Positions 9,868-24,030 of a stretch of 24,749 bases of DNA are shown here, piece after piece. Origin of the DNA: a virus; IMG/VR virus record IMGVR_UViG_3300006805_000149, positions 1 to 24,749 of that record, one strand, 5' to 3'. The position numbers were made by a program, and so were the translations under genes. Position 1 is the stretch's first letter. Every line of letters begins with the position of its first letter. The notes under the pieces are model-generated. The model saw only the letters and a program-made list of their open reading frames with translations. It was not told where the DNA came from and ran no database searches.

Positions 9868-10296
9868 ATGACAGCGAATATGAAACCAGTGCGTATTACA
9901 GGAACCCTCTACTGGACACAGTGGATGACCAAAATTAATACAGCGTTCAACGAGGATAGCACTAAGTATGAATGCACCATTGGCGACCTTTCTGAGAAGG
10001 ATTGTGAGGCTCTTAAGAGCATGGGTATTAAGATTAAGAACAAAGAAGGACAAGGCTCCTTCATTGTGTGTAAGAGCAACTTTGTTCATGGAGCTGTAGA
10101 TGAGGATGGTAAACCAGTTGATCCATTGGCTATTAGCAAGGGAACGAAGGTTGCTGCAATTATGAGTTTCTACACTCATAAGATGAGCAAGATGCACGGC
10201 AACGCCCCTTCTATTAAGAAGTTGATTGTCACTGAGCTGGTAACATACAATCCAGACAAGGCACTTGCTGAGGAGCTGGACGAATACGTCCTCTAA
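9868..10296 (+). CDS. Probable single-stranded DNA-binding protein
   Basis: A 142-residue protein that would coat the lagging strand. N-terminal OB-fold-like strands (VRITGTLYWTQWMTKINTAF) and then YECTIGDLSEKDCEAL resemble phage SSB/gp2.5-type proteins. The C-terminus is acidic with an aromatic near the end (EELDEYVL), the usual tail through which phage SSBs contact polymerase and helicase. SD AAAGGA. The position between polymerase and exonuclease fits. It is shorter than T7 gp2.5 (about 230 aa). Identity is inferred from context plus these features; no catalytic motif exists to confirm it. Confidence 0.65.
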   Translation: MTANMKPVRITGTLYWTQWMTKINTAFNEDSTKYECTIGDLSEKDCEALKSMGIKIKNKEGQGSFIVCKSNFVHGAVDEDGKPVDPLAISKGTKVAAIMSFYTHKMSKMHGNAPSIKKLIVTELVTYNPDKALAEELDEYVL

Positions 10297-10994
10297 TGGA
10301 TAAGCGCCTTAACACGGCGTTCATTGATGCTGACTACATGGTTTATAAAATAGGATTCTCATCTAAGGATGTCTCCGAAGCTATAGCCTGTAGTCGGCTT
10401 CAGGAACAGCTATTTGATCTAGTCTACACAACTTTGAAGTGTGAAGATTATGATGCTTTTATCACAGGCAAGACTAATTTCCGATATGAGGTTGCTATAA
10501 CGCATCCTTACAAAGGAAATAGGAAAATGCTTGAGCGTCCCATCCACTACGAAGCCCTACGAGAAAAACTTATCTCTCTAGGTGCTTCTGTTAGTGAGAA
10601 CCAAGAGGCTGACGATGATGTAGGCATTATCTCTTCACAGTATGAAGGAATTATTGTCCATGTGGATAAAGACTTAGACCAGCTTCCGGGTTTGCATTTC
10701 AATCCTATAAAAGGAGAGATGTATTCCATAACACCTGAGCAAGGGCTTAAAAACTTCTACACTCAGTTACTAACAGGAGATAGAATTGACAACATTGTTT
10801 GCTTGTATGGCATCGGCCCTGTCAAGGCTGCGAAGATTCTTAAAGACTGTACGACAGAGCAAGAGCTCTATGGAGCAGTGAAGAAGGCTTATGAAGACCA
10901 CGAAGAGCCTCTGGACAGACTTCTAGAGAACGGCAGGCTGTTGTGGCTAAGCCGTTATGAAGGACAACGCTGGGAGTTTCCTAGTGAGGAGTAG
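10296..10994 (+). CDS. T7 gp6-like 5'-3' exonuclease (FEN/PIN family)
   Basis: A 232-residue nuclease that removes RNA primers and degrades host DNA in T7. Metal-binding carboxylates appear in order: FIDADYMVY (D11, D13), EADDDVG (E104, D106-108), VHVDKDLDQL (D124, D126) and LLTGDRIDNI (D162, D165). A helix-hairpin-helix follows (YGIGPVKAAKIL, 171-182). ATG overlaps the SSB stop by one base. The order SSB-exonuclease-HNH is typical of this phage group. Confidence 0.92.
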   Translation: MDKRLNTAFIDADYMVYKIGFSSKDVSEAIACSRLQEQLFDLVYTTLKCEDYDAFITGKTNFRYEVAITHPYKGNRKMLERPIHYEALREKLISLGASVSENQEADDDVGIISSQYEGIIVHVDKDLDQLPGLHFNPIKGEMYSITPEQGLKNFYTQLLTGDRIDNIVCLYGIGPVKAAKILKDCTTEQELYGAVKKAYEDHEEPLDRLLENGRLLWLSRYEGQRWEFPSEE

Positions 10995-11361
10995 TTTTAA
11001 TGATGGAGAATGGACAGCTGCTAAATTCAGAAGCTTTGTTACTGGTGCGCTGCGAACGGCAACTCGCCGATGGCCTCCGAAGTATGCTGCTCTGAAGGAA
11101 GCCTCTACTACACGGAAAACTAACAAGAAGACAGGAAAGCTTGCTATGCACTATATGTGCTCTACTTGCTCTGTTGAGTTTGTTAGTGGAGATGTGCAGA
11201 TAGATCATACAAGCCCTGTGGTGGAGCCTTCGAAGGGCTTTATTAGCTGGGATGTTTATGTCGATAGATTGTTCTGTGAGAAGGATAATCTAAGTGTGCT
11301 CTGTAAGCCCTGCCATGCTGATAAGACAGCAGCAGAAAAGAAATTAAGGAAGAAGAAATGA
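10984..11361 (+). CDS. HNH endonuclease, replication-module type
   Basis: About 125 aa from a GTG at 10984 (GGGAG 7 nt upstream); a longer in-frame form begins at ATG 10957. It opens FNDGEWTAAKFRSFVTGALR and RRWPPKYAALKEA, then a zinc-binding CSTCSVEF, the HNH core VQIDHTSPVV (IDH), GFISWDVYVDRLF and a second Cys pair LCKPCHADKTAAEKK. This domain layout is common next to exonuclease genes in T7-like phages and is probably a resident recombination or DNA-processing nuclease rather than a recent homing gene. It overlaps the exonuclease by 11 nt and the next gene by ATGA. Confidence 0.85.
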   Translation: MRSSFNDGEWTAAKFRSFVTGALRTATRRWPPKYAALKEASTTRKTNKKTGKLAMHYMCSTCSVEFVSGDVQIDHTSPVVEPSKGFISWDVYVDRLFCEKDNLSVLCKPCHADKTAAEKKLRKKK

Positions 11362-12993: not shown

Positions 12994-13760
12994 AAATATT
13001 AGTTATTCCTGACTGCCAAGTTAAGGCAGGTGTTCCGGTGGAGCACCTCGTGTGGGCAGGGAAGGCTATTTGTGACTATCGCCCTGATGTTGTTGTAAAC
13101 ATTGGTGACTTTGCAGATATGCCTTCCTTGTCCACACACGATACCAAAGGAAGCAAATACTTTGAAGGGCTGCGATACAATATTGATGTTGACACAACTA
13201 AGCTGGCTATGAAGCTGTTGCTACAGCCCTTGCGAGATTTACAAGAAACTCAGAAGGAAAGCAAGCATAAGGTTTATAAGCCTCGCATGGTGCTCACGTT
13301 GGGCAATCATGAACACCGTATTAATAGGGCAGTTAATAATAACCCCATGCTTGAGGGGCTCATATCAACAAAGGATTTAGGTTATGAAAATGATTGGGAA
13401 GTTCACGAGTTTCTGCATCCGGTTTTTATCAATGGTGTGGGCTTTAACCATTACTGGCCTGTTGGCGCTATGGGTCGTCCTGCCGCTTCTCCTGCTGCAA
13501 TTGTTTCTAAGCTTCACATGTCTTGTGTTGCAGGGCATCAACAAGGCCGCTCAGTGGCTTACGGTAAAAGAGCAGACGGCAGAAGCATCTGTGCTATCAT
13601 TGCTGGGAGTTTCTATCAGCACGACGAGGATTATATGGATCAGCTTAGTAATAAGCATTGGCGTGGTTTGGTTGTATTGAATGAAGTTGAGGATGGACAC
13701 TTCGATGAAATGTTCCTCAGCATTGAGTATTTGAAAGGTAAATATGGCACAGAGTTGTGA
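12990..13760 (+). CDS. Calcineurin-like metallophosphoesterase
   Basis: A 256-residue binuclear-metal phosphoesterase. Motifs in order: IPDCQV (6-11, Asp with the usual His replaced), NIGDFADM, TLGNHEHR, and AGHQQGRS near the C-terminus, followed by AIIAGSFYQ. I recognise the 'PDCQVKAGVP..HL.W' opening from many phages. Substrate unknown; its neighbours (ThyX, diphosphohydrolase, RNR) hint at nucleotide or nucleic-acid phosphate chemistry. It overlaps the preceding gene by ATGA. Confidence 0.88.
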   Translation: MKILVIPDCQVKAGVPVEHLVWAGKAICDYRPDVVVNIGDFADMPSLSTHDTKGSKYFEGLRYNIDVDTTKLAMKLLLQPLRDLQETQKESKHKVYKPRMVLTLGNHEHRINRAVNNNPMLEGLISTKDLGYENDWEVHEFLHPVFINGVGFNHYWPVGAMGRPAASPAAIVSKLHMSCVAGHQQGRSVAYGKRADGRSICAIIAGSFYQHDEDYMDQLSNKHWRGLVVLNEVEDGHFDEMFLSIEYLKGKYGTEL

Positions 13761-14232
13761 TGGATGCTTCTATGAGAAAGTACATGGTTCACAAGATCCC
13801 TGCTCTTCCTGTGGCTCTGGACATAGTTATGATAAATGGGTAGCAGTGGACTTCCTAAAGAATGTGCCAGATGATACAAGCAGCATGGAAGGAGAGAAGG
13901 TTATGAATAACATGCTGACAGAGCTTGAACGAATCAAGAGCAAGCAAGGGGTTAAATACGACAGTGAGAAGGCCAAGTGGTCATTGCTGCCCTTCCGAGC
14001 CTTGCAAGAAGTTGTGGAAGTTCTCACCTTCGGAGCTAAGAAATACGCCGCTGATAATTGGAAACATGTACCACAGGCGCGTGAGCGCTATATTGACGCA
14101 GCTTATAGGCATTTGTCTGATTGGAGCACTACATCTCGCTTAGATCCCGAGACAAACAAGAGCCACCTAGCACACGCTATTTGTTGCTTGCTGTTTCTCT
14201 TGTGGTTTGAGCAGAAAGACAGGGCCGTGTGA
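13744..14232 (+). CDS. dATP/dGTP diphosphohydrolase-type protein (DUF5664, MazZ-like) with N-terminal Cys motif
   Basis: A 162-residue protein with two parts. Residues 1-30 form a zinc-knuckle-like CDGCFYE...DPCSSC (C5, C8, C20, C23). Residues from about 69 are the all-helical domain GVKYDSEKAKWSLLPFRAL, VEVLTFGAKKYAADNW, YIDAAYRHLSDW and HLAHAICCLLFLLWF, which I recognise as the family including MazZ of Z-genome phages; the KW..LPF, KK and HL.DW positions carry metal-binding carboxylates and nearby residues. It starts 17 nt inside the metallophosphoesterase gene (SD AAAGG). No PurZ or DatZ gene is seen here, so 2-aminoadenine DNA cannot be claimed; dNTP-pool control is the cautious reading. 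Confidence 0.75.
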   Translation: MAQSCDGCFYEKVHGSQDPCSSCGSGHSYDKWVAVDFLKNVPDDTSSMEGEKVMNNMLTELERIKSKQGVKYDSEKAKWSLLPFRALQEVVEVLTFGAKKYAADNWKHVPQARERYIDAAYRHLSDWSTTSRLDPETNKSHLAHAICCLLFLLWFEQKDRAV

Positions 14233-14399
14233 TGGGATACTACACTCCCTATATAAAAAGTAGTTATATAACCGGAGGGCTACGAAGGCAAACAGTGCAG
14301 GACTTCCTTGCAGCTGTGGCCTTTGTAGACAAGTTTAAGAAGTTTGACCAGCTATATGTATACGAACAAGAAAAGAAGGAAATTAATGACCAAGAATGA
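14232..14399 (+). CDS. Hypothetical protein (55 aa)
   Basis: ATG overlaps the previous TGA by one base, and the 3' end overlaps the RNR start at 14386 by 14 nt. Product MGYYTPYIKSSYITGG, then a helix QDFLAAVAFVDKFKKF and a charged tail. No family recognised; it may serve mainly to couple translation into the RNR gene. Confidence 0.45.
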   Translation: MGYYTPYIKSSYITGGLRRQTVQDFLAAVAFVDKFKKFDQLYVYEQEKKEINDQE

Positions 14400-15456
14400 A
14401 CTATCCCCATACCAAACCTACATCTCCAAGAGCCGGTATAGCCGCTTCCTAGACAGTGAGGGCCGTCGAGAGCATTGGCCTGAGACAGTAAATCGTTATT
14501 TCAACTTCATGGAAAACCACTTGCAGAAGAAGCATGGCTATGTGCTCACAGAAGCCCTGCGAGGCCGCTTGCAAGAGGCTGTGACCAACTTAGAGGTTGT
14601 GCCGTCAATGCGCTCTATCATGACCGCTGGAGAGGCTCTGGAGCGTCAGAACATTGCAGGCTACAACTGTGCTTACATCACTATTGATGATGTGAAGAGC
14701 TTTGATGAGGCAATGTATATTCTTCTGTGCGGTACAGGCGTTGGTTATAGTGTGGAGCAGAAATATGTTAACCGTCTTCCAGAAGTTCCAGAGGTGTTGT
14801 ACAATAGCAATACTACTATTGGTGTTAAAGATTCCAAAGAGGGCTGGGCTAAGGCGTTACGACAGGTGTTTGCCCTCCTTTATGCAGGAGAGATTCCTAA
14901 GTGGGATGTATCAGCTGTGCGTCCTTCGGGAGCACGACTTAAGACATTCGGTGGCCGTGCAAGTGGCCCCGAGCCTTTGGTGGACTTGTTTAAATATGTC
15001 GTTGCTAAGTTCAAGGGTGCTGTGGGTCGGAAACTCACATCCCTTGAAGCACACGACATTCTGTGTAAGATTGGGGAAGTTGTTGTTGTGGGCGGTGTTC
15101 GACGAAGCGCAATGATTAGCTTGTCTGATCTTGGTGATGACAATATGGCAAAGGCCAAGGCAGGTAATTGGTGGGACGGTAATGGACAACGGGCTCTGGC
15201 TAACAACAGTGCTGTGTACGATACCAAACCCTCTGTAGGCCAGTTTATGCGTGAATGGAGCAGCATCTATGAGAGTCATTCAGGTGAGCGTGGTATTTTT
15301 AATCGCTATGCTAGTAAATTACAAGCGAATAAGAATGGAAGACGCGCTGTGCAGGTTGTAGTGACTTTAGAGGATGGAAGTAAGCAGACGTTTGAGTCAA
15401 ATGAGCTTTTTAATAACAAAGCAGCTATTGATTTGAAAGTAGGGGACAGTGTTTAA
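14386..15456 (+). CDS. nrdJ: Class II (B12-dependent) ribonucleotide reductase NrdJ, N-terminal piece of a split gene
   Basis: Reduces ribonucleotides to deoxyribonucleotides. This piece has 356 aa. Residues 1-320 are normal NrdJ: YNCAYITIDD with the first redox Cys (C95), LLCGTGVGYSVE, WDVSAVRPSGARLKTFGG, VVGGVRRSAMISL, ALANNSAVYD, ERGIFNRYASKL and NGRR. Residues 321-356 (AVQVVVTLEDGSKQTFESNE, then AAIDLKVGDSV) are foreign and end at TAA 15454-15456. The radical Cys and second redox Cys are on the C-terminal piece at 15811, so this polypeptide alone cannot be active. The start at 14386 has SD GAAGGA; an in-frame ATG at 14344 is less likely. N- and C-pieces are in the same reading frame. Confidence 0.93.
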   Translation: MTKNELSPYQTYISKSRYSRFLDSEGRREHWPETVNRYFNFMENHLQKKHGYVLTEALRGRLQEAVTNLEVVPSMRSIMTAGEALERQNIAGYNCAYITIDDVKSFDEAMYILLCGTGVGYSVEQKYVNRLPEVPEVLYNSNTTIGVKDSKEGWAKALRQVFALLYAGEIPKWDVSAVRPSGARLKTFGGRASGPEPLVDLFKYVVAKFKGAVGRKLTSLEAHDILCKIGEVVVVGGVRRSAMISLSDLGDDNMAKAKAGNWWDGNGQRALANNSAVYDTKPSVGQFMREWSSIYESHSGERGIFNRYASKLQANKNGRRAVQVVVTLEDGSKQTFESNELFNNKAAIDLKVGDSV

Positions 15457-15840
15457 TAAGATTTGTAACAAATGCAAAGAAACAAAATCTTTAGATTTAT
15501 TTGTAAAACATAAACAATGTATTGACGGAAGAGCCGGATATTGTAAAGCATGTGATGCAACTACAGTGAGCAATCTAAGGAGAGCAACAAAGCTGAAAGC
15601 TATTGCTTACAAGGGGGGTGCTTGTTCTAGGTGTAGTGGAGTGTTTCATCCAGCTGTATATGATTTCCATCATATAGACCCCTTAGAAAAAGAAGCTGAT
15701 CCCGGTTCTTTGATGGGAAGAAAATGGAAAGTAGTAAAAGAAGAGCTTGATAAATGTATCTTGCTCTGTTCAAATTGTCATCGGCTTACACACGCAGAAG
15801 AGGAGTGGAAATGAAAATTACAAATATAGAGGTTATTGCT
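15346..15840 (+). mobile_element. HNH-bearing insertion that splits nrdJ (about 495 bp)
   Basis: Inferred boundaries: after NGRR (codon ending 15345) and before DTGNHAYGTNPC (codon starting 15841). The length is a multiple of three. It contains 36 codons of open frame after the N-piece, an HNH gene in another frame and about ten codons before the C-piece. The base composition is visibly more AT-rich than the flanks. The N-side has an intein-block-B-like phrase (VTLEDGS...DLKVGDSV) and the C-side a block-F-like strand (KITNIEVI), but no Cys/Ser at position 1 and no terminal His-Asn. Exact edges need comparison with an uninterrupted homologue. Confidence 0.7.
15449..15814 (+). CDS. HNH homing-type endonuclease inside nrdJ
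   Basis: A 121-residue nuclease from a GTG at 15449 that overlaps the stop of the N-piece by 8 nt; its TGA overlaps the ATG of the C-piece. N-terminal zinc ribbon ICNKCKETKS...YCKACDA (CxxC plus CxxC), then the HNH fold with CSRCSG, YDFHHIDPLEK (HH) and ILLCSNCHRLTH. A typical free-standing phage HNH endonuclease. The gene is AT-rich compared with its neighbours, a sign of separate origin. Its likely target is the uninterrupted nrdJ of related phages. Confidence 0.9.
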   Translation: MFNKICNKCKETKSLDLFVKHKQCIDGRAGYCKACDATTVSNLRRATKLKAIAYKGGACSRCSGVFHPAVYDFHHIDPLEKEADPGSLMGRKWKVVKEELDKCILLCSNCHRLTHAEEEWK

Positions 15841-16791
15841 GATACAGGTAATCACGCTTATGGAACAAACCCCTGCTCAGAAATCATTCTGCGGCCTTTT
15901 CAATTTTGTAACTTAAGCAGTGTTATTGTGCGACCAGAAGACACAGAAGAAACCTTGCTAGACAAGATTGAAATGGCAACCATCTTGGGAACCTTCCAAT
16001 CAACCATGACCAGCTTTCCTTATCTCCGTAAGATTTGGCAGCAGAATACAGAAGAAGAGCGTTTGTTGGGTGTGTCTATGACAGGCCCGTTAGACAATGT
16101 TTTATTGAATAATCCGGAAGATGAAGATCTCCCACGTTTACTAGAAAGCCTAAAAGCCCGTGCTGTTATTACTAATAAACAATTTGCTGATGATATTGGC
16201 ATTAGTGCTTCTGTCGCTATTACCGCTATCAAGCCCGAGGGCACTGTCAGCCAGCTTAGTAACACTGCTAGTGGCCTTCACCCTCAACACAGTCGTTACT
16301 TTATTCGCCGTGTACGAAGTGATAATAAAGATCCTCTGACGGACTTCCTGAAGGCACAGGGGTTTCCTTCAGAGGCTTGTGTGATGAAACCAGATAGCAC
16401 AACTATCTTCAGTTTCCCGATGCGAGTTAAAGAAGGGGCTTTGTTGCGTGAAGACTTGGATGCTGTTAAGCACTTGAAGCTTTGGTTGCTGTATCAGCGT
16501 CACTATTGTGAGCATAAGCCTTCAGTAACTATCAGCGTGCAGGAACATGAGTGGCCTATTGTTGGTGCTAAGGTGTGGGAGAATTTCGATGAGATCACAG
16601 GTGTTAGCTTTCTACCTATGGATGGAGGGACATATCGACAAGCTCCTTATGAAGCTATCACGGAATATGAGTATCACACTATGGAAGCAACGATGCCTAC
16701 GAATATTGACTGGGATGCTTTGGTAGAAAACACTGATAATGTTGAAGGAGCCCAGATGCTTGCATGCACCGCAGGCGCTTGTGAAATTTAA
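15811..16791 (+). CDS. nrdJ: Class II ribonucleotide reductase NrdJ, C-terminal piece of a split gene
   Basis: A 326-residue piece starting at ATG 15811 with its own SD (GAGGAG, 15800-15805) inside the end of the HNH gene. The first ten residues (MKITNIEVIA) are foreign. From residue 11 it continues NrdJ: YGTNPCSEIILRP with the thiyl-radical Cys (C22) and Glu (E24), FCNLSSV with the second redox Cys (C33), LLGVSMTGP, AIKPEGTVSQL and the C-terminal thiol relay CTAGAC (C319, C324). N-piece (320) plus C-piece (316) gives about 636 residues, near the usual length of monomeric class II RNRs. All essential residues are present across the two pieces, so a functional two-polypeptide enzyme is plausible. 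Confidence 0.93.
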   Translation: MKITNIEVIADTGNHAYGTNPCSEIILRPFQFCNLSSVIVRPEDTEETLLDKIEMATILGTFQSTMTSFPYLRKIWQQNTEEERLLGVSMTGPLDNVLLNNPEDEDLPRLLESLKARAVITNKQFADDIGISASVAITAIKPEGTVSQLSNTASGLHPQHSRYFIRRVRSDNKDPLTDFLKAQGFPSEACVMKPDSTTIFSFPMRVKEGALLREDLDAVKHLKLWLLYQRHYCEHKPSVTISVQEHEWPIVGAKVWENFDEITGVSFLPMDGGTYRQAPYEAITEYEYHTMEATMPTNIDWDALVENTDNVEGAQMLACTAGACEI

Positions 16792-21737: not shown

Positions 21738-21965
21738 TTAATAACTCCCGCCATCTACTGTTGCTGTAAGAACACCCGACACTGTTAGATTCACCATTGT
21801 GGCTGTTCCTGTGAAAGAGCCGTTATTAGCCTCACTCTTGGAGCTGATTGCTGAAGCTATGTTAGTAAATTCAGTATCAATCTCCGTGCCTTTGATAATC
21901 TTATTAGGATTGCCTGTAACTAAGCCATCTTTAATGGCGAAGTTGGTTGTCTTTGTGTAGTTCAT
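21738..21965 (-). CDS. Small tail-associated protein (75 aa)
   Basis: MNYTKTTNFAIKDGLVTGNP, then NKIIKGTEIDTEFTNIASAI and a beta-rich C-terminus (MVNLTVSGVLTATVDGGSY). I recognise this opening from podovirus tail-fiber-like or structural proteins next to tail tubular protein B. The product is short and has no receptor-binding domain, so it may be an adaptor or a stand-alone tail component. Its ATG overlaps the HNH stop (ATGA); before that gene arrived it would have followed tail tubular B directly. Confidence 0.7.
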   Translation of the reverse strand: MNYTKTTNFAIKDGLVTGNPNKIIKGTEIDTEFTNIASAISSKSEANNGSFTGTATMVNLTVSGVLTATVDGGSY

Positions 21966-22495
21966 GGATAACCTCTATCTTTCATGTATTGTACAACTGT
22001 ATCTAGCTCTGCTGTTGTAGCATAGGATTTAATTCTATTTGCTTTCCAAGAAATAACTTGAACGTTATCCTTTGTGTAGCCTTTTGTAGAATCAATACGG
22101 TCTAAACTTGGGCTGGTTTCTCTAAAACCTGCTGAGTTCCATTCGAAATCAATATTAAAAATAGGACATTTGTTATCTACAGGCCAAAGCTCTTTAATAT
22201 CTTCTAACGTTAATGTGTGCTCTCTATTCTTTTTTAATGCTCTGGCTTTAGAGGCACTTAACAGCATCTGTACCCGATAAGATAAATTAGTCAATCTACG
22301 ATTGCGTTGATATTTTAAAGAATATTCTCTTATTTCATCCGCGCATCTTAAGCGACGAGCAGTCTGTCTAATCTTATCACAAGCTCTACAGCAGTTTTGA
22401 AGCCCATCCTTGTTGGCTCTGTTAATCGAAAATAAAGATTTATTTACCTCTTCTTTACAAAGATTGCAAGGTTTAGTTTCAAGGGCAGTGCTCAT
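21962..22495 (-). CDS. HNH homing-type endonuclease in the tail module
   Basis: 177 aa. N-terminal zinc ribbon CNLCKEEVNKSLFS...CCRACDKIRQ, a basic linker (ARRLRCADEIREYSLKYQRN) and a C-terminal HNH-type core with CPIFNIDFEW, SPSLDRIDSTKGYTKDNVQV and ISWKANRIKS (DRID...GY...NV..IS..AN..K signature). It is more AT-rich than the flanking virion genes. It fits between tail tubular B and the 75-aa gene with 4-nt stop/start overlaps at both ends and no damage to either neighbour. A free-standing mobile endonuclease. Confidence 0.9.
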   Translation of the reverse strand: MSTALETKPCNLCKEEVNKSLFSINRANKDGLQNCCRACDKIRQTARRLRCADEIREYSLKYQRNRRLTNLSYRVQMLLSASKARALKKNREHTLTLEDIKELWPVDNKCPIFNIDFEWNSAGFRETSPSLDRIDSTKGYTKDNVQVISWKANRIKSYATTAELDTVVQYMKDRGYP

Positions 22496-24030
22496 CGTGT
22501 CTTTCCTGTTTTAACATAAACATCTAACTTCTGAATGGATACAGGCTTTTCAAACACCGTTGTTTCAAAACCTAGCTGAATAACCTTACCTGAGCCGCCA
22601 ATGTTAATAACTTTATTATCAAAGGCACTTCCCCCGTATTCACCAATTGCATACTCAGCAATGGCATATTCTGCAACAGCTTTATTAGCTAGTGAGAACT
22701 GACGACTATTTAAAATATCACTATAATCAAAGCCAAACTTCAGCACCACTCCGTAGCCCTGTCCACCAATAACCGTAATGCCAACCTTCTTCATCAGTTT
22801 AATAACTGTGGGTACAGCGAAATCAAAGTAGTTGGTGAAATAACGCATTAAGTAGCTATCTGTATTGTCTTTGTAGCCGTCATACTTACCGATGTAGCCA
22901 GCCTTGCCCACTAGCAAGTCTTTGTTACGAAGGTATTGAAAAGCTGTTGGTACAAGACCATCCCATGTAGTTGTTCTATTGGCTCCATTCTGAAGGGCCG
23001 CTCTCATGTCAAAGCAATAAACCAACTGACGGGCTGGGAGAGACAACAAGTAGAAGGCATCCTTATCAGAATAAACAGCCTTAATCTCAGCAGCATTCTC
23101 TAGGGTTATTTCGTACACAAGATCATCGCGCACATTGGCACTAATGTCTCGCATAGGAGCACTCTTCTCTTGAATAGTTCTCATGAGGGACTTAACACCT
23201 GCATCAGACAAGAACAAGATGTCTCCACCTGTTACAACCACTGAGTCTCTAGCGAAGCAGCCAGTGCCTGTAATAGCATCTGAGAGGGCCAGCTCATTAG
23301 GGTTGTTGGCATTGGAATAGATAAGAATTTGTCTACGACCAAAGATTATAAGGAAGTTGTTATGAGAAGCAAGAGCAACAATCTCATCACCACCAGCAGG
23401 CCACACCTGAGATACATCCAATGTTCCTGCTGTGCCTGTACTCAGTACAAAAGGAGCCAATAAATCAGAGAATTGAACAAGGCTCTTATTAGTTCCGTTA
23501 TTAGCTGTCCATACACGGCCATAAGCACTAATAGCACAGTTGTTCTGAACCACAGTTCCTACGTAGCCTGCGTGCTCAGTTATTCTCCGATAGGATGTAG
23601 AACTAACTGCTGGATCAAAGATTAGAGGGTCGTGGCCTGTCTGATACATCACTAGGTGACTATTAAGAGAAGCCATCTGCCAGTTGCTATCAGTGATTGT
23701 AGGGGCTGTACCACCACCTCCGTAGGTTAGCTCTGTGAGGGTTGAACCTACCAGCTTAAACAGCTTATTGTTACCAGCAGCAACCACATAAGAAGACCCA
23801 TCAACTGTAATCAGTTCCCCAATAGATTTAACTGAAGCAGTACTTAGAGGGGTAGAAACAGCATGAGCAGGAACCCACCCCTTACGAGCACCAATACGAC
23901 CAAACTTATCAATCACACAGTTGTTAGCAATTGTAGCAAACCCATCCTCAAGAGTGATGGAGGAGTCTTGGGTATTAGCCCCTTTGAAGCCCGGAGCAGC
24001 AATAGTGGTTGTTAAGAGCTTTGCAACCAT
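22492..24030 (-). CDS. Tail tubular protein B-like (T7 gp12-like tail nozzle / stabilization protein)
   Basis: 512 aa. The N-terminus APGFKGANTQDSSITLEDGF, then ANNCVIDKFGRIGARKGW is a block I recognise from podovirus tail tubular B/stabilization proteins. Repeating beta strands with SYVVAAGNNKLFKLVG, NNFLIIFGRRQILIYSNAN and LVYCFDMRAAL suggest a propeller-type fold. The C-terminal part has VIGGQGYGVVLKF and a short repeat KAVAEYAIAEYAIGEYGGSA. It forms the end of the tail tube below tail tubular A. Adjacent to TTP-A with a 2-nt gap. Confidence 0.85.
   Translation of the reverse strand: MVAKLLTTTIAAPGFKGANTQDSSITLEDGFATIANNCVIDKFGRIGARKGWVPAHAVSTPLSTASVKSIGELITVDGSSYVVAAGNNKLFKLVGSTLTELTYGGGGTAPTITDSNWQMASLNSHLVMYQTGHDPLIFDPAVSSTSYRRITEHAGYVGTVVQNNCAISAYGRVWTANNGTNKSLVQFSDLLAPFVLSTGTAGTLDVSQVWPAGGDEIVALASHNNFLIIFGRRQILIYSNANNPNELALSDAITGTGCFARDSVVVTGGDILFLSDAGVKSLMRTIQEKSAPMRDISANVRDDLVYEITLENAAEIKAVYSDKDAFYLLSLPARQLVYCFDMRAALQNGANRTTTWDGLVPTAFQYLRNKDLLVGKAGYIGKYDGYKDNTDSYLMRYFTNYFDFAVPTVIKLMKKVGITVIGGQGYGVVLKFGFDYSDILNSRQFSLANKAVAEYAIAEYAIGEYGGSAFDNKVINIGGSGKVIQLGFETTVFEKPVSIQKLDVYVKTGKTR

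Follow-up and report, generated by a model that had tools for sequence, protein, structure and literature searches.

How does a ribonucleotide reductase gene survive being cut in two by a nuclease gene? This question is raised by a stretch of 24,749 nt from an uncultured phage record (IMGVR_UViG_3300006805_000149; the window below), in which the class II ribonucleotide reductase (RNR) NrdJ is encoded by two open reading frames (ORFs) in the same frame, NrdJ-N and NrdJ-C. The two are separated by an HNH nuclease gene, which is in a different frame and overlaps each of them. From sequence comparisons and structure predictions, we consider it likely that a homing element split nrdJ and that a beta-rich clamp supplied by the cassette leaves a working enzyme, which would assemble from two chains.

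A class II ribonucleotide reductase gene in two pieces

The ORFs matched the original prediction of a NrdJ in two same-frame pieces with an HNH gene in between, and close relatives of the gene were found to be uninterrupted. The GTG start of the HNH gene overlaps the stop codon of NrdJ-N (TAA, 15454-15456), and the HNH stop overlaps the ATG of NrdJ-C as ATGA. NrdJ-C had been credited with its own Shine-Dalgarno (SD) sequence and ATG, and both were present (Table 1); an alternative start lies 6 nt upstream of this ATG and is GTG in the window and ATG in contig L003. The near-identical contig L001 had the same structure, with identities of 99.7% for NrdJ-N, 100% for the HNH gene and 100% for NrdJ-C. 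Contigs L002-L004, from another metagenome, carried a diverged version with the same structure (about 95% for NrdJ-N and the HNH gene and 89% for NrdJ-C). Because the structure is shared by L001 and the diverged L002-L004, the split layout is not an assembly accident.

The split gene encodes a monomeric-type, B12-dependent NrdJ. Pfam matches to class II and RNR barrel domains were obtained for the two bodies (Table 1), and NrdJ-C matched the solved B12-dependent RNR 1l1l in a phmmer search (E 3.4e-25). The close intact homologue L008, modelled with AlphaFold2 (predicted local distance difference test, pLDDT, 79; predicted template modelling score, pTM, 0.84), likewise had 1l1l as its best PDB match (E 2.9e-37; template modelling score 0.80). 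The class assignment follows from these matches; an RTPR-like fold, the Cys and Glu of NPCSE, two redox Cys residues and a C-terminal Cys pair were all found. The catalytic residues were divided between the pieces as originally described, and none was missing: C95 in AGYNC lies in NrdJ-N, while NrdJ-C holds the radical Cys C22 and E24 (NPCSE), the redox C33 (QFCNL) and the C-terminal pair C319/C324 (CTAGAC).

The insert and its recurrent tail and head

Comparison of both pieces with intact relatives, which had been proposed as the way to fix the junction, placed the insert at 15346 to about 15843. Its length had been put at about 495 bp, a multiple of three; the multiple of three held, and the size is now about 498 bp. 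The insert had also been equated with the HNH gene. The nuclease gene is indeed within it, but the insert also supplies the last 36 codons of NrdJ-N and about the first 10 codons of NrdJ-C, termed here the tail and the head. In intact relatives, NGRR is followed by about 8 residues and then NPCSE, as in L008 (NGRRTTGKEWGTNPCSE). In the window, the order was NGRR, the 36 tail residues and a stop, the HNH gene, and then MKITNIEVIAD followed by TGNHAYGTNPCSE. The GC content was 0.37-0.40 in the insert, compared with 0.45-0.48 outside it. In the L008 model, the insertion loop connects a helix to the strand preceding the active-site segment. The native loop varied from 7 to 33 residues among the matches listed, indicating that it tolerates insertions.

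AlphaFold2 modelling of NrdJ-N predicted the tail as a beta hairpin with strands at residues 323-327 and 333-337 (pLDDT 74-81), and the half-barrel beside the tail was poorly folded in the absence of its partner. The heads showed a strand-like alternation of hydrophobic residues (KIxxIxV). Judging from these sequences and predictions, the tail and head probably hold the two protein halves together.

Six other, mutually distinct split NrdJ sequences also had the 36-residue tail, in the same loop and with 50-97% identity to the window tail. All seven distinct tails were exactly 36 residues long and shared the invariant core V-T-x-E-D-G...E...A..L..GD. The head was present in every further distinct split sequence whose contig reached it (5/5), reading MKITNIEV in two and VKITKIET, MKIKKIEV and MKISSVNV in the others; contigs L209 and L252 end before the head. 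In five of the six further sequences (L057, L087, L204/L205, L209 and L252/L256/L259), the nuclease was not HNH but an unrelated one of endonuclease VII type (Endonuclease_7, PF02945; three were scanned, E 1e-22 to 1e-25). The nuclease start fell within or adjoining the last tail codons at each locus, and wherever the contig extended far enough, NrdJ-C began where the nuclease ends and had a GGAG-type SD (L057, L087, L204 and L256). The tails of L087 and L204 were 81% identical as protein and 74% as DNA, and those of L057 and L256 differed with a nonsynonymous divergence (dN) of 0.18 and a synonymous divergence (dS) of 1.7.

Several candidate sources or relatives of the tail and head were considered and rejected. 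The longer native loops of L111, L132 and L175 were unrelated to a joined tail and head, and an uninterrupted, contiguous tail plus head in NrdJ was not found among the matches listed. The tail is not the N-terminus of the HNH family, as the FelixO1 and Phriendly HNH proteins have no tail. The sole genome_contigs match to the tail, in Massilia (L192), appears to be an oxidoreductase that contains VTLEDG by chance. Alignments to Streptomyces and Rhodococcus extended through the tail; the NrdJ genes concerned are single ORFs, and the short native loop was seen in the two checked at the junction. The cultured phage collection gave only weak matches to the tail and no locus with the module; all module loci were metagenome contigs.

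Table 1. Positions of the split nrdJ gene, its insert and the associated start signals in the window.
Feature	Position	Strand	Remarks
NrdJ-N	14386-15456	+	356 aa ORF
NrdJ-N body	14386-15345	+	ends ...KNGRR; carries redox Cys C95; Pfam RNR-II_ins_dom, E 8.5e-9
C-terminal tail of NrdJ-N	15346-15453	+	36 aa, AVQVVVTLEDGSKQTFESNELFNNKAAIDLKVGDSV; insert-borne; missing in intact NrdJ; predicted beta hairpin
SD-like AGGGGA for HNH GTG	15441-15446	+	short spacing; within tail codons KVGD; AGGAGA in L003
HNH gene	15449-15814	+	GTG start 15449; 121 aa; +1 frame
SD AGAGGAG of NrdJ-C	15799-15805	+	within HNH gene; from the sequence
NrdJ-C	15811-16791	+	ATG 15811; 326 aa; same frame as NrdJ-N
N-terminal head of NrdJ-C	15811-15843	+	MKITNIEVIAD, last 1-2 residues uncertain; insert-borne; missing in intact relatives
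NrdJ-C body	15844-16791	+	native linker TGNHAYGT, then NPCSE; PF02867, E 7.3e-7

Selection, mobility and competing explanations

The divergence between the window and L002 was calculated for each part of the locus. The dN/dS values were 0.041/0.66 (about 0.06) for the NrdJ-N body and 0.080/0.84 (about 0.10) for the NrdJ-C body; both halves have therefore been kept functional after the split, and on these rates they are under strong purifying selection. For the HNH gene, dN was 0.021 and dS 0.27. The HNH ORF was identified as a free-standing FelixO1-type HNH (phrog_2255, E 1.1e-32), with 47% identity to FelixO1 p088 and with the motif HH...N..H and the zinc cysteines intact. It thus has the HNH motif of a homing endonuclease and relatives among phage free-standing HNH genes. 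In other phages (L198, L199 and L200), relatives of the window HNH were also seen directly upstream of a gene resembling an exonuclease, indicating that such genomes hold this nuclease family at more than one position.

The nucleotide identity between the window and L003 was about 60% upstream, rose to 92-95% in the insert and at its borders, and was lower again downstream. Outside the insert region, L003 was closer to the intact L008 and L010 than to the window. NrdJ trees were built from 131 C bodies and 122 N bodies; the split state required five changes on the C tree, four of them forced by well-supported branches, and four on the N tree, three of them forced. The identity peak, the scattered split state and the low GC content are consistent with repeated transfer of the cassette by homing, and precise losses are a less likely source of such a pattern.

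The locus is best read as originally predicted, as a genes-in-pieces class II RNR that a homing-type nuclease produced, given the intact alleles, the purifying selection, and the fact that neither intron RNA nor intein splice residues were found. In the proposed course of events, the homing element would have comprised a nuclease gene with the codons of the 36-aa tail on one side and those of the head of about 10 residues on the other, and it would have entered an exposed, length-variable loop just ahead of NPCSE in a phage monomeric-type NrdJ. NrdJ-N, the nuclease and NrdJ-C would be produced through coupled translation, and both NrdJ chains would assemble without splicing, the tail hairpin packing against the head strand to form a small non-covalent clamp. 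The nuclease would cut intact alleles and thereby spread the whole cassette.

Some points weigh against this explanation. As the contigs are fragmentary, these genomes may have an intact RNR elsewhere; no second NrdJ was found in the contigs carrying the split gene. The AlphaFold2 prediction for the tail was built on only four tail-bearing rows. In addition, the KVGD codons double as the SD-like site of the nuclease, which may explain part of the KxGD conservation. That overlap, together with the nuclease start in or beside the last tail codons at all loci, would also suit a tail and head that have no protein role and travel with the nuclease merely as DNA or RNA context, be it translation coupling, a ribosome-binding site or a homing-site flank. 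We regard such a role as unlikely, since the tail length is a constant 36 aa, the tail is better conserved as protein than as DNA throughout, even in the distant VTLEDG part, the same tail accompanies two unrelated nucleases, and the hairpin is predicted fairly confidently. In some Campylobacter phages, split RNRs seem to degenerate (PMC3653736), and the window gene might likewise be a decaying pseudogene, the nuclease having killed the enzyme and left the phage reliant on host deoxynucleoside triphosphates (dNTPs). This appears very improbable, since both halves have been under strong purifying selection from the time they were split, all catalytic residues are retained, and the other split sequences have intact reading frames and ribosome-binding sites.

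Splicing was weighed at both the protein and the RNA level. The tail and head could be remnants of an intein or split intein, that is, of a Hint fold that either still splices or died recently: LKVGDxV and the strand K-I-x-x-I-E are similar to Hint core motifs, the nuclease occupies the position of an intein endonuclease, and an hhalign comparison of the tail with phage inteins gave a score of 22.8 against a column-shuffle maximum of 17.5, with a probability of 45%. However, this match covered 15 columns only and corresponded to a common beta-turn motif. Pfam returned no Hint or intein match even at E 10, and the PDB profile searches returned no intein. The window has no Cys, Ser or Thr at the N junction, no block B TxxH and no HN at the C end, and its 36 + 10 residues are far below the size of split inteins (gp41-1, about 88 + 37). 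The missing splice residues, the lack of a database match and the small size therefore exclude intein splicing on sequence grounds, whereas the Hint-core resemblance, limited as it is to a common motif, would still allow descent from a dead intein; overall, we find an intein origin doubtful. Phage RNR genes commonly hold introns with nuclease ORFs (PMC3653736), and the insert might itself be a spliced group I or group II intron with such an ORF. An intron is nevertheless highly improbable here, as Rfam detected none in the window stretch even at E 1, nor in L087 or L057 at the gathering threshold, and as the nuclease gene takes up most of the ~498 bp and the remainder is conserved as protein. 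Rescue as a single chain by frameshifting was rejected as well, because two shifts would be required and the overlaps vary between loci.

Relation to known split genes and significance

Homing elements usually avoid harm through an intergenic position, RNA splicing or protein splicing. In fractured phage genes with split inteins (NrdJ-1 and gp41-1), NrdJ included, a nuclease gene lies between the halves. Those halves trans-splice by means of their intein parts, whereas the split NrdJ described here has neither the splice residues nor the greater part of the Hint fold. A T4-like phage, Shigella phage ESh36 (L184; record UNVERIFIED), separately yielded a candidate fractured gene of the split-intein kind: its DNA primase/helicase ORF (901-1167) has a gp41-1-like N-intein at its end (47% identity over 81 aa), and the next ORF overlaps it.

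A close parallel is the NrdA-A/MobE/NrdA-B arrangement of phage Aeh1, in which the two-part class Ia RNR is active (PMC2988022); by its title, a paper cited in PMC3267527 attributes the Aeh1 assembly to mobile-element-derived interaction domains. In both systems, a homing HNH gene splits the RNR catalytic subunit, the active-site residues are divided, and both halves carry extra sequence. In contrast, the Aeh1 enzyme is class I and split after NLCIEIALPT, while the present one is class II and split before NPCSE; the nuclease also differs, and the module here is found repeatedly, in several lineages and with nucleases of two families. The Aeh1 tail and head were considered as homologues of those of NrdJ, and no likeness was seen by eye.

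Division of a class II RNR has precedents, so that the split in a monomeric class II enzyme, as first proposed, is new in its split point and is not the first split class II RNR (PMC4520616, PMC3653736). The NrdJa/NrdJb pair of Pseudomonas aeruginosa is a characterised two-chain class II RNR in which both chains are required in vivo; NrdJa holds the catalytic machinery and NrdJb only the disulfide-exchange part, and the paper reports no intervening nuclease (PMC4520616). Thermus phage phiYS40 encodes its class II RNR as two ORFs, nrdJ-a and nrdJ-b (PMC3653736), whose gap of only 12 nt leaves no room for a nuclease; the likeness is drawn here from the two-ORF state and not from the split point. 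In summary, genes-in-pieces RNRs and split class II RNRs were already known, and the new elements are the split site in a class II RNR, the recurrent clamp and the exchanged nucleases. No description of this split NrdJ with its recurrent clamp was found in the literature searched, of which the coverage was partial.

Other genes of the window were also noted. Just upstream of the split NrdJ lies a gene for a dATP/dGTP diphosphohydrolase N-domain protein (13744-14232; PF18909, E 2.9e-33), with ThyX further upstream, forming a dNTP-modifying gene cluster. An HNH-like ORF without a Pfam match (10957-11361) overlaps the end of the 5'-3' exonuclease gene (10296-10994), and L200 has a similar ORF after its exonuclease. 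On the minus strand, a probable nuclease-like ORF (21962-22495) with the zinc motif CNLC...CRACD and no Pfam match overlaps the minus-strand ORF 22492-24030 in an ATGA-type arrangement.

The tail and head could serve as a compact natural tag pair for protein joining. The division of a B12-dependent radical enzyme right beside its radical cysteine also makes the assembly of class II RNRs testable. As to the homing elements themselves, the odds appear evenly balanced that the locus represents a third route of survival in an essential gene, in which a mobile, nuclease-independent, non-covalent clamp would have been retained while the nuclease was exchanged at least once. That a length-invariant module recurs beside unrelated nucleases suggests a general route by which homing elements can do without splicing.
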